From Paracholeplasma manati (lineage in GTDB: Bacteria; Bacillota_I; Bacilli_A; Acholeplasmatales; UBA5453): a stretch of 64,000 nucleotides of DNA. The notes under the pieces were generated by a model that ran no database searches, was not told where the DNA came from, and worked only from the letters and a program-made list of their open reading frames with translations. The stretch spans positions 62,001 to 126,000 of the forward strand of contig NZ_JAOVQM010000002.1 of NCBI RefSeq assembly GCF_025742995.1, given 5' to 3'. Shown one piece after another: positions 17,563 to 19,983 of the stretch (positions are counted from its first letter, which is position 1; every line of letters begins with the position of its first letter). Made by a program: the position numbers and the translations under genes.

Positions 17563-17580
17563 ATTTTTAGCCCTTTATTT
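17553..17580. terminator. Bidirectional terminator between convergent genes
   Basis: Stem GGGCTA/TAGCCC (17556-17561 with 17568-17573) flanked by A-run and T-run on both strands; both convergent genes end in it. Confidence 0.8.
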
Positions 17581-18289
17581 TTTTAGACTGAAACGCTGTG
17601 GGTAAGAACAATAATATGATCAATACCAATCCTACCAACGACATCACACCTAGATATGCCACATAGCTCACATCTTCAATCACGAATTGGAATGGACTGC
17701 CATTGCCGTAATGTAATAACATATAATCGGTATCGAGGATGAAATTTAGGACATTCGCGAACGCCGCAGATAACAACAACACGAGTAGAGCTTTGGTAAA
17801 GTCCAAAAATTTAGGCACATAGGATTTTGACATCGCCAAATAGATGGAAAAGAAAATCATGTTGCCGTGATAAATGAAACTATGGAATGGCAATACTTCA
17901 GTGACTGGGAACCATTGATCGGAATTACCTAAGACATTCGATGGGTATAGTAAAACCAACAACCCTGCTAATAAACCGACAGCGTAGGTAAACGGTGTCA
18001 TAAACCTTGCGAATTTACCTTTACCAAAGGCTACAATCGGCATCACATACAATGAAAAACTGCACAAGTTAAATGGATACATATAGGCACCAATGCTCCC
18101 ATCGGTTGCAATGGTATACGTATATTTGAATAATTCTAGTGCGATTAAGAGTAAAGCACTCATTCGAAGAATCACTTTTCGATTGACGGATGGTCTTAAA
18201 GAGAGCCATAAAAACAAAACGATGAATACAATGGTTACCAATGAACCAGACAAATGTTTCATCCCAAATACTTCGGGTGTTAATATCAT
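17567..18289 (-). CDS. YwaF/TIGR02206-type integral membrane protein
   Basis: 240 residues with about seven hydrophobic helices. The segment YMYPFNLCSFSLYVMPIVAF resembles the conserved LHLCS region of the TIGR02206 (YwaF, TMEM164-like) membrane family, whose function in bacteria is not settled. A Phe/His pair in LPFHSFIYHGNMIFFS also fits. SD gaggtaat precedes the ATG. It is a single gene with a promoter that carries an inverted repeat in its spacer. Confidence 0.7.
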   Translation of the reverse strand: MILTPEVFGMKHLSGSLVTIVFIVLFLWLSLRPSVNRKVILRMSALLLIALELFKYTYTIATDGSIGAYMYPFNLCSFSLYVMPIVAFGKGKFARFMTPFTYAVGLLAGLLVLLYPSNVLGNSDQWFPVTEVLPFHSFIYHGNMIFFSIYLAMSKSYVPKFLDFTKALLVLLLSAAFANVLNFILDTDYMLLHYGNGSPFQFVIEDVSYVAYLGVMSLVGLVLIILLFLPTAFQSKKIKG

Positions 18290-18382: not shown

Positions 18383-18775
18383 CTATAATGATTCCAAATA
18401 ATCGATCACTTGAACCGTGCCGAGTATCATCTCAATAAATACTTTATCTTGGTAAACAAACAACGCTGGAACGCCACGCAATGTCACAGGGGGTGTACCC
18501 TGTTTTTCCACATCCATTGAAATCATCAAGTAAACTTCATATCGATTTCCACGCCTATTGATGATTTCTACAAAATCAGTTTCAATCGATTTGCAGTCAG
18601 GGCATCTTGGTGAATAGTAAAAGACCAAAAATAGCCCATCGGTTATCACGGTGTCAACGTCATACCAGCCTTCGAGATGAAGGGACTCAAGCTCAGCATA
18701 TGTTTTCGGTTTTGTTGTACAAGCACTTGTTGTCAATACAAACAATAGTGCAATCATAATCGATATTTTTTTCAT
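18383..18775 (-). CDS. Thioredoxin-fold lipoprotein with CPDC motif
   Basis: 130-residue predicted lipoprotein. The signal peptide ends in a lipobox TSAC. A thioredoxin-like domain follows, with YSPRCPDCKSIE (active CxxC), and a cis-Pro region RGVPALFVY. It probably acts as a thiol reductase/oxidase or redox partner outside the membrane. ATG 18775 is chosen since ttggag lies about 10 bases upstream. It is the last of three consecutive minus-strand lipoprotein genes. Confidence 0.8.
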   Translation of the reverse strand: MKKISIMIALLFVLTTSACTTKPKTYAELESLHLEGWYDVDTVITDGLFLVFYYSPRCPDCKSIETDFVEIINRRGNRYEVYLMISMDVEKQGTPPVTLRGVPALFVYQDKVFIEMILGTVQVIDYLESL

Positions 18776-18787
18776 AGCTTTCTCCAA

Positions 18788-18810
18788 TGAAAAAGGTGCG
18801 CGAGCACCTT
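18788..18810 (-). terminator. Hairpin between lipoprotein genes, partial terminator
   Basis: Perfect 7-bp stem (18793-18799 with 18804-18810) with a short T tail on the minus strand. It may attenuate transcription into the thioredoxin-like gene or protect the 3' end of the upstream message. Confidence 0.6.
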
Positions 18811-19414
18811 ATTTCGTATAATTGTTTTCGTGGTATTGTAATAAAACTTTCATGACGCGAATCATGTTATTTGTAGAAACGCTTGCACCTGTAAATGTGT
18901 CGATTAAATCTGTTTCAGCAATCGGTTTTGTGTTCTTGATGCCACCGGCATAAGTGCCATTGGTAAACACTTCAATGCCATCAAGGTCAGAGGATGTTTT
19001 ACCAATTAACCATGGGATGAATTGTGTTTCAAATGCTTCTAAAGTAGCTTCAGTTTCAGGTACTGGATTGCTATCCCCCCAGAAACCGGCAGTATAATGA
19101 CCTGTGCCATCTTCGCCAAATGAAATCATTTGTAATGAACTGTCAGACTTTTTAATTTCAACATAAGCCACTTTCCAATAGTTTACTTCAGGTGCGCGGC
19201 ATGTACAAGCGACATAAGCGATTTGATACTTCACGTAGTCACGCATTTCATATTCAAATAGAATATATGCTTTGCGTTCTACAACAGTACCATGACCATT
19301 CAAGTGATCAAAAGTTAAAATATTGGAAGCTTCTTCAGGTGCTTTTTCTTGGCAACCCATCAAAGTGAATGATGCCAACAAAAGCGCGAGTAAAACAAAT
19401 AATTTTTTCATCAT
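18809..19414 (-). CDS. Lipoprotein with FMN-binding-like C-terminal motif
   Basis: 201 residues; signal peptide with lipobox LMGC. The C-terminus DTFTGASVSTNNMIRVMKVL resembles the D-x-SGAT-x-T site of FMN_bind domains, where ApbE attaches FMN covalently to Thr/Ser (Ser here). The middle has CTC (VACTCRAPEVNYW) and several conserved-looking Trp/Tyr. Function is inferred: a surface flavoprotein in electron transfer. The ATG at 19414 or 19411 follows aagga. Lies 16 bases after the rhodanese lipoprotein gene. Confidence 0.6.
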   Translation of the reverse strand: MMKKLFVLLALLLASFTLMGCQEKAPEEASNILTFDHLNGHGTVVERKAYILFEYEMRDYVKYQIAYVACTCRAPEVNYWKVAYVEIKKSDSSLQMISFGEDGTGHYTAGFWGDSNPVPETEATLEAFETQFIPWLIGKTSSDLDGIEVFTNGTYAGGIKNTKPIAETDLIDTFTGASVSTNNMIRVMKVLLQYHENNYTK

Positions 19415-19430
19415 CAATATCCTTTTTCAA

Positions 19431-19925
19431 TTAAGCTGCTGGTGGGAAAGTGTAAGAACCATCACCGAAGACTTTTGCTGGGCCAGTATAATCACCGATA
19501 GCACCTGCATTCCACACATGTTCATAACCAAGATATTCTAAAGCTTCTTTAACGAATCCCGCTCTTGTTCCGCCTGCGCAAAATAAAACGATGTTCATAT
19601 CTTCATCAAAAAGATTACGTAAAGCTTCTTCATCTTTAATGGCTTCTGGTGTAAATGTCCAACCATCCACTCTTACAAGAATTTGTTCTTGTTCTAAGTA
19701 TTGGAAGAAAGGAATCATGTGAGAACCTCTAATGTATCCTCCATTCATCTTATCTTGCCAGTTTCTTAAATCCACAAAATCCACATTTGGGTATTCCAAA
19801 TACTCATCAATGTTTGCCATAGTAATTTCTTCTGGCAATTCGTAAGTTTCTTTCTTTTCGCATGCAGAAAGACCTACGACAGCAAAAAATGCAATCATCA
19901 AGACTAATAATTTTTTCATATTCAA
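19431..19925 (-). CDS. Rhodanese-like lipoprotein
   Basis: 164-residue lipoprotein with lipobox LSAC. The rhodanese domain has the entry VDFVDLRNWQD, and an active-site loop LFCAGGTRAGF matching the CxxGxR pattern of active sulfurtransferases, so the catalytic Cys is kept. Expected to handle sulfane sulfur or act in redox outside the membrane. SD aaggag precedes the ATG. First gene of the three-lipoprotein unit. Confidence 0.85.
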   Translation of the reverse strand: MNMKKLLVLMIAFFAVVGLSACEKKETYELPEEITMANIDEYLEYPNVDFVDLRNWQDKMNGGYIRGSHMIPFFQYLEQEQILVRVDGWTFTPEAIKDEEALRNLFDEDMNIVLFCAGGTRAGFVKEALEYLGYEHVWNAGAIGDYTGPAKVFGDGSYTFPPAA

Positions 19926-19954: not shown

Positions 19955-19983
19955 ATTATAAAGCGTATTGAAGTATTATACAA
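19955..19983 (-). promoter_or_regulatory. Promoter of the three-lipoprotein unit
   Basis: Minus strand: TTGTAT (19978-19983), 17-base spacer, TATAAT (19955-19960). The TATAAT lies about 30 bases before the rhodanese-gene start. Confidence 0.75.

Follow-up and report, generated by a model that had tools for sequence, protein, structure and literature searches.

Three neighbouring lipoprotein genes on the minus strand, at positions 18383 to 19925 of the window (the whole 64,000-nucleotide stretch analysed here), encode a rhodanese (RHO), a protein of an undescribed family (MID) and a thioredoxin-like protein (TRX). Taken as a whole, the evidence somewhat favours an explanation in which the trio acts as an extracytoplasmic flavin/thiol redox relay, with reduction of rhodanese-bound sulfur as its most plausible output. 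Comparison of gene neighbourhoods suggests that MID and its rhodanese constitute a widely conserved redox kit, not described before, of predicted flavin protein and rhodanese, whose partner is almost always either ApbE or a Trx/DsbD pair. The features of the locus are collected in Table 1.

Table 1. Features of the RHO-MID-TRX locus, in window coordinates.
Feature	Position	Strand	Basis or remark
Probable promoter TTGTAT-17-TATAAT	19955..19983	(-)	sequence; L007 counterpart
RHO, rhodanese-domain lipoprotein	19431..19925	(-)	PF00581, E 1.5e-7, above cut-off
RHO, probable start	ATG 19919	(-)	
RHO, active-site loop CAGGTR	19580-19563	(-)	
MID, probable FMN_bind-fold lipoprotein, undescribed family	18809..19417	(-)	AF2 model, family alignments
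MID, probable start	ATG 19411 or 19414	(-)	
MID, CTC of CTCR (C71-T72-C73, 202-aa numbering)	19199..19207	(-)	candidate redox thiol pair
MID, D173-TFTGAS, predicted ApbE flavinylation site	18881..18901	(-)	motif [S/T]GA[S/T]
MID, candidate acceptor Ser179	18883-18881	(-)	
Intrinsic-terminator-like hairpin	18793..18810	(-)	just past MID stop codon, before TRX; folding z -3.0
TRX, thioredoxin-like lipoprotein	18383..18787	(-)	PF00085, E 1.2e-5, above cut-off
TRX, probable start	ATG 18775	(-)	
TRX, CPDC motif	18604-18593	(-)	

The initial annotation had described three lipobox-bearing genes, among them a rhodanese with an intact Cys loop and a thioredoxin-like protein with CPDC, and all of this is borne out by gene position, profile matches and motifs, the lipoboxes being LSAC (RHO), LMGC (MID) and TSAC (TRX). 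Its placement of the trio on the "outer membrane face" needs correction: given Acholeplasmatales kin, the proteins would be expected at the outer face of a sole membrane. The nearest relative, an Acholeplasmataceae MAG (locus L007), carries orthologues that are 75% (RHO), 73% (MID) and 54% (TRX) identical, with dN/dS ratios of about 0.15, 0.13 and 0.20, respectively. Because these ratios are low for all three, RHO, MID and TRX are, by this measure of sequence divergence, genes under purifying selection. Directly downstream of TRX lies a TMEM164-family membrane acyltransferase-like gene (17567-18289, minus strand; PF14808, 2.3e-22), which was not found adjoining the trio in L007. An Rfam search at the trio locus returned nothing above threshold.

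The proposal of a single promoter ahead of the trio holds in part. The probable promoter has a perfect -10 element (TATAAT), but its -35 element matches at only three of six positions and the site is absent from the list of our consensus scan, which returned 12 sites against 10.1 +/- 2.9 in shuffled sequence. The region upstream of RHO in L007 reads TTGCAA-17-TATAAT, and the retention there of TATAAT and the subsequent leader supports the assignment. We rejected one uninterrupted three-gene transcript, since the hairpin separates MID from TRX and the trio is therefore not one simple transcript. A hairpin directly 3' of the MID stop codon is predicted in all type A and type B loci (described below), with folding z-scores of -1.6 to -10.6 and differing sequences. 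There is none after the RHO stop codon (z about 0) and little folding after the Trx stop codon (z -1.9 to 0.9), and the hairpin after MID is missing where a small FMN_bind gene or a rhodanese comes next. As it precedes ApbE as well as Trx genes, its simplest reading is partial termination, which would make RHO and MID more abundant than the downstream ApbE or Trx, as if both of these were needed in lower amounts.

The middle protein had been called FMN-binding-like, and we found this in its predicted structure, although its profile score falls short. Against the Pfam FMN_bind model (PF04205), MID reaches 14.4 bits where the cut-off is 22, and only residues 161-193 are aligned. Searches of NCBIfam and PHROGs gave signal-peptide-type noise only, a PDB sequence search with the MID profile gave only signal-peptide or chance matches, and when the MID core was compared with small FMN_bind lipoproteins by local hhalign, the alignment covered no more than the final 30 residues, at low probability. 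The AF2 model of MID (pLDDT 86, pTM 0.79) was run through VIA-align on its 1000 best Foldseek chains, and ranks 1-15 were all FMN_bind-fold chains. The best match was A. vinelandii RnfG (Z 9.2, rmsd 2.6, 118 residues), followed among the top 15 by A. woodii RnfG, NqrC and Borrelia BB0365, which we take to be FMN_bind-like; the first unrelated row had Z 4.6. Foldseek proper gave no match with this model at E<=1e-3, and the fold evidence thus comes from VIA-align as the second aligner. An AF2 model of the most divergent family member, the MID of L070 (pLDDT 73), likewise returned RnfG/NqrC at ranks 1-13, the best being C. tetanomorphum RnfG at Z 9.5 and the first unrelated row standing at Z 5.5, though this model is not fully independent of the first, most of the alignment being common to both.

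Bridges to FMN_bind that are independent of the modelling come from the sequences of two relatives. The L070 MID aligns to positions 10-71 of the 77 in the FMN_bind model (3.9e-4; 21.4 bits, cut-off 22) and carries the classical motif VDAVSQATVTS, and the L066 MID is fused to an N-terminal canonical FMN_bind domain that lies above the cut-off (9.3e-20). Across the family, PF04205 is matched by 13 of 30 members at E<=0.5. Judged by the models and these sequences, MID is very probably an FMN_bind-fold flavoprotein.

The TGAS site reported in the initial annotation is present, at MID residues 176-179, and fits the motif modified by ApbE, [S/T]GA[S/T] (PMC8238504). In an alignment of 30 MID sequences D173 is invariant and the acceptor S179 nearly so. 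Among relatives the site mostly reads AGSS, TGSS or SGSS, the Ala before the acceptor being Ser in most, and the acceptor is Thr in the MID of L065, L067 and L070; Ser is likewise the acceptor in this genome's own RnfG proteins (AGSS, ISGAS, GGAS, VSGAS). The initial annotation overlooked a second candidate redox centre, the CxC of MID: the CTCR motif (C71-T72-C73-R74) is conserved in at least 90% of the 30 sequences and lost only in an orphan paralogue (L062; 325 aa, in genome G059), which also lacks a rhodanese neighbour. ApbE is absent from the window, as had been stated, within what was inspected, and a search of the genome located it at C1:442893 (E 8.6e-53), beside the RNF operon. With this ApbE available, the flavin attachment machinery exists in the genome, and MID quite likely carries ApbE-attached FMN.

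The RNF operon itself encodes two tandem RnfG-like proteins (L005 8786-9763 and 9741-10730; G000:C1 ~438.8-440.7 kb). Both contain two FMN_bind-type motifs in which the acceptor is Ser, and the complex may thus hold four flavins; the usual RNF has one such flavin. An NQR-like operon in NqrB to NqrF order is located on another contig (L006 7236-11057), which to our knowledge is unusual in Acholeplasma-like bacteria. RNF and NQR are membrane complexes able to feed extracytoplasmic flavins.

Relatives of MID were drawn from genome contigs and from 395 genomes sampled across the class, and they span Acholeplasmataceae, Izemoplasma-like and Erysipelotrichaceae-like bacteria. Among 392 genomes sampled across the phylum, no MID match lay outside the class, solid matches occurring only in Bacilli. 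The genes are conserved together: a rhodanese lipoprotein gene directly adjoins MID in 28 of the 29 untruncated loci of relatives, the CTC-less paralogue L062 being the sole exception, and Trx lies directly downstream of MID in six relatives. In type A loci (Izemoplasma-like, 12 loci), ApbE is next after MID or one gene further on, in most followed by a PF07456 membrane protein, and most are flanked on the opposite side by a divergent [FeFe]-hydrogenase operon. ApbE is close by in four loci besides these. Type B loci (L007, L011, L014, L015, L016, L055 and L056) have a DsbD-like membrane protein beside the cluster, recognised by PF02683 in L007 (1.7e-7) and by similarity in the others, and a Trx-like lipoprotein after MID in L007, L011, L014, L015, L016 and L055, L056 being cut there. 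They often include a small canonical FMN_bind lipoprotein, as in L011 and L014-L016, whereas none is found beside the window trio. Erysipelotrichaceae-type loci (type C) have either a single rhodanese or two, and several of them have ApbE nearby. In the three type F loci a small FMN_bind gene follows MID, and the cluster lacks both Trx and DsbD-like genes. In its gene content the window trio is of type B, and the MID tree agrees, placing it in a clade (support 91/75) together with types B and F and with L070, which has a long branch. Two loci show local disruptions: at L068 7913-8578 (G027) a stop or frameshift apparently interrupts MID, next to a double-rhodanese gene that is intact, and at L010 5884-7257 a transposon-type ORF (TnpB-like by eye) lies between MID and ApbE.

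The DsbD-like gene of the window's own genome is on the same contig as the trio, 229 kb away, and its product is 65% identical to that of L007. This protein is below the Pfam cut-off, and the conclusion from PF02683 that the genome has no DsbD was a false negative of that model, which a protein query corrected. Its operon includes a cysteine desulfurase-like gene: at L071 10299-11740 the DsbD-like gene is followed by one for a 101-aa protein and then by the cysteine desulfurase-like gene (PF00266), an arrangement that in L007 lies next to RHO-MID-Trx. DsbD-like matches occur in 97 of the 395 class genomes, including congeners without MID, and we rejected DsbD as a MID-specific marker.

Both outcomes that the initial annotation would have counted against itself, a middle protein without an FMN_bind fold and a trio that is not conserved, failed to appear in the models and the gene neighbourhoods, and its idea of a redox cassette is supported in outline. 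It also likened the trio to Gram-positive extracellular electron transfer (EET), a comparison that is only partly apt. ApbE and PF07456 genes beside MID in relatives agree with this, but the DsbD-like and Trx partners do not. Since MID is accompanied in relatives by ApbE and the PF07456 protein, but also by DsbD-like protein and Trx, we read the system as a thiol/flavin hybrid, and a thiol/flavin relay is in our judgement likely. The three lipoproteins would sit as such a relay at the outer face of the cell membrane, where the genome's secreted ApbE would attach FMN to Ser179 of MID, to which MID would add the thiol pair Cys71/Cys73. Electrons would probably flow to MID via the CPDC of the Trx-like lipoprotein, which the DsbD-like membrane protein would re-reduce, as the gene neighbourhoods of relatives suggest; RNF-side flavoproteins may be a further electron source. 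The substrate that MID then reduces would be offered to it by the rhodanese lipoprotein, its constant partner. Sulfane sulfur on the CAGGTR Cys (thiosulfate, polysulfide or protein persulfide) is the most plausible candidate, with sulfide as the product. Against the relay stand the sub-threshold Pfam score of MID, the position of the genome's own DsbD-like gene outside the cluster, the presence of DsbD in congeners that lack MID, and the missing small FMN_bind lipoprotein beside the window trio.

The assignment of sulfane sulfur as substrate is tentative, if the best single guess for type B, in which the CxxGxR loop is intact as it is in the window. In type A rhodaneses A/S/D-DGC[IM]R replaces the canonical CxxGxR Cys in 10 of 10 loci compared, the loop Cys being shifted consistently (CxxGxR to xDGC[IM]R; L008-L010, L051-L054, L057, L061 and L065), and in type C loci one rhodanese copy is Cys-less. 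Since the canonical Cys is moved or lost in type A and in one type C copy, sulfane sulfur would not be the general rule; on these sequences, sulfur transfer cannot be general in its canonical form. Genome G059, which we take as that of the cultured Izemoplasma X. coldseepsis zrk13, carries the ApbE-type version, RHO-MID-ApbE, at L061. Thiosulfate (100 mM) promotes growth of X. coldseepsis zrk13, for a reason that is not settled (PMC8397711). Together, this gene carriage and the thiosulfate-promoted growth give independent but indirect support for sulfane sulfur. A rather doubtful extension would make RHO-MID a sulfane-sulfur reductase that acts outside the cytoplasm of wall-less and related Bacilli and has so far gone unrecognised. 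In it, the rhodanese would present persulfide sulfur to a lipoprotein with covalent flavin and CxC in one domain, fed from the DsbD/Trx or the RNF/hydrogenase side.

Other explanations draw on parts of the same evidence. In the manner of Gram-positive EET, flavinylated MID could take up electrons from RNF or a membrane dehydrogenase and hand them to Fe(III), humics or quinones outside the cell, the rhodanese being structural. ApbE, the PF07456 membrane protein and NusG_II-type proteins (L067, L069) do cluster with MID, the L069 locus begins where an RNF operon ends, and Izemoplasma-like loci abut a [FeFe]-hydrogenase operon with an RnfC_N/Nuo51 subunit. We nevertheless regard this as unlikely: a PplA-like two-domain lipoprotein was not noted in the clusters, the Trx/DsbD partners and the CxC indicate thiols, and the constant rhodanese partner is left unaccounted for. 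The Trx/DsbD side could instead point to thiol repair or quality control, with DsbD-like protein and Trx lipoprotein keeping cysteines of surface proteins, persulfidated ones included, reduced and MID linking them to the flavin pool. This would fit the DsbD-like and Trx gene order in L007, L011, L014, L015, L016 and L055 and an msrAB-like gene that adjoins L066, but type A and C clusters have neither Trx nor a DsbD-like gene, which makes it quite unlikely.

It is also conceivable, though very unlikely, that the FMN_bind domain of MID has degenerated and, with no covalent flavin attached, serves a thiol or scaffold role. Its acceptor is Ser rather than the commoner Thr, the preceding Ala is Ser in most relatives, and its Pfam score is sub-threshold. 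The RnfG domains of the same genome vary likewise (AGSS/SGAS), however, and the conservation of D173 and S179 extends across distant families. The neighbouring ApbE in the 12 Izemoplasma-like loci would be hard to explain without flavinylation there.

We propose to place the MID/RHO system among the known flavinylation systems as a variant whose nearest counterpart is the DsbD-DUF3570-DUF4266 type, though it is made of other parts. The DsbD-type system comprises ApbE, DUF3570, a Trx-like protein and a DUF4266 CxC protein (Meheust et al. 2021, PMC8238504); its published clusters place the CxC in this separate DUF4266 protein, and a thiol/flavin hybrid was proposed for it (PMC8238504). With it the MID/RHO system would share a DsbD-like protein, which adjoins the cluster in type B relatives and is encoded elsewhere on the contig here, along with a Trx-like protein, a predicted ApbE substrate and a secreted CxC. 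In MID, in contrast, the predicted flavin site and the CxC share one FMN_bind-fold protein, which has a constant rhodanese partner and solid matches only in Bacilli within the phylum sample; neither DUF3570 (PF12094) nor DUF4266 (PF14086) was found in this genome. The FMN_bind domains of RnfG/NqrC (PF04205) share with MID the predicted fold, the D...GA[S/T] pattern and a last helix with the acceptor in its N-terminal part, whereas MID is a lipoprotein, is no RNF/NQR subunit, has CTCR and stays below the Pfam cut-off. As in Listeria flavin-based EET (FmnB/PplA), an extracytoplasmic lipoprotein of a Gram-positive-related lineage is predicted to undergo ApbE-type flavinylation, but the trio has thiol and rhodanese partners, and neither a PplA-like protein nor Ndh2, EetA or EetB was noted in the cluster. 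Sud of Wolinella is a periplasmic rhodanese that delivers polysulfide sulfur to a reductase, and thus also an extracytoplasmic rhodanese paired with a reductase-like partner. There the partner is a molybdopterin enzyme, here it would be a flavoprotein/thiol protein, and the rhodaneses of several MID relatives lack the canonical Cys. In the literature searched, we found no paper on the combination of ApbE, flavinylation and rhodanese.

MID is thus a candidate ApbE substrate family missed by the current Pfam and NCBIfam models, one in which flavinylation would be tied to a constant rhodanese partner. The presence of the ApbE-type version in cultured X. coldseepsis zrk13 makes the role of the module directly testable, and a sulfane-sulfur reductase, if true, would explain the thiosulfate-promoted growth of this strain. 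Wall-less fermenters are usually regarded as metabolically poor; the module suggests a possible route by which they may pass electrons to extracellular acceptors.
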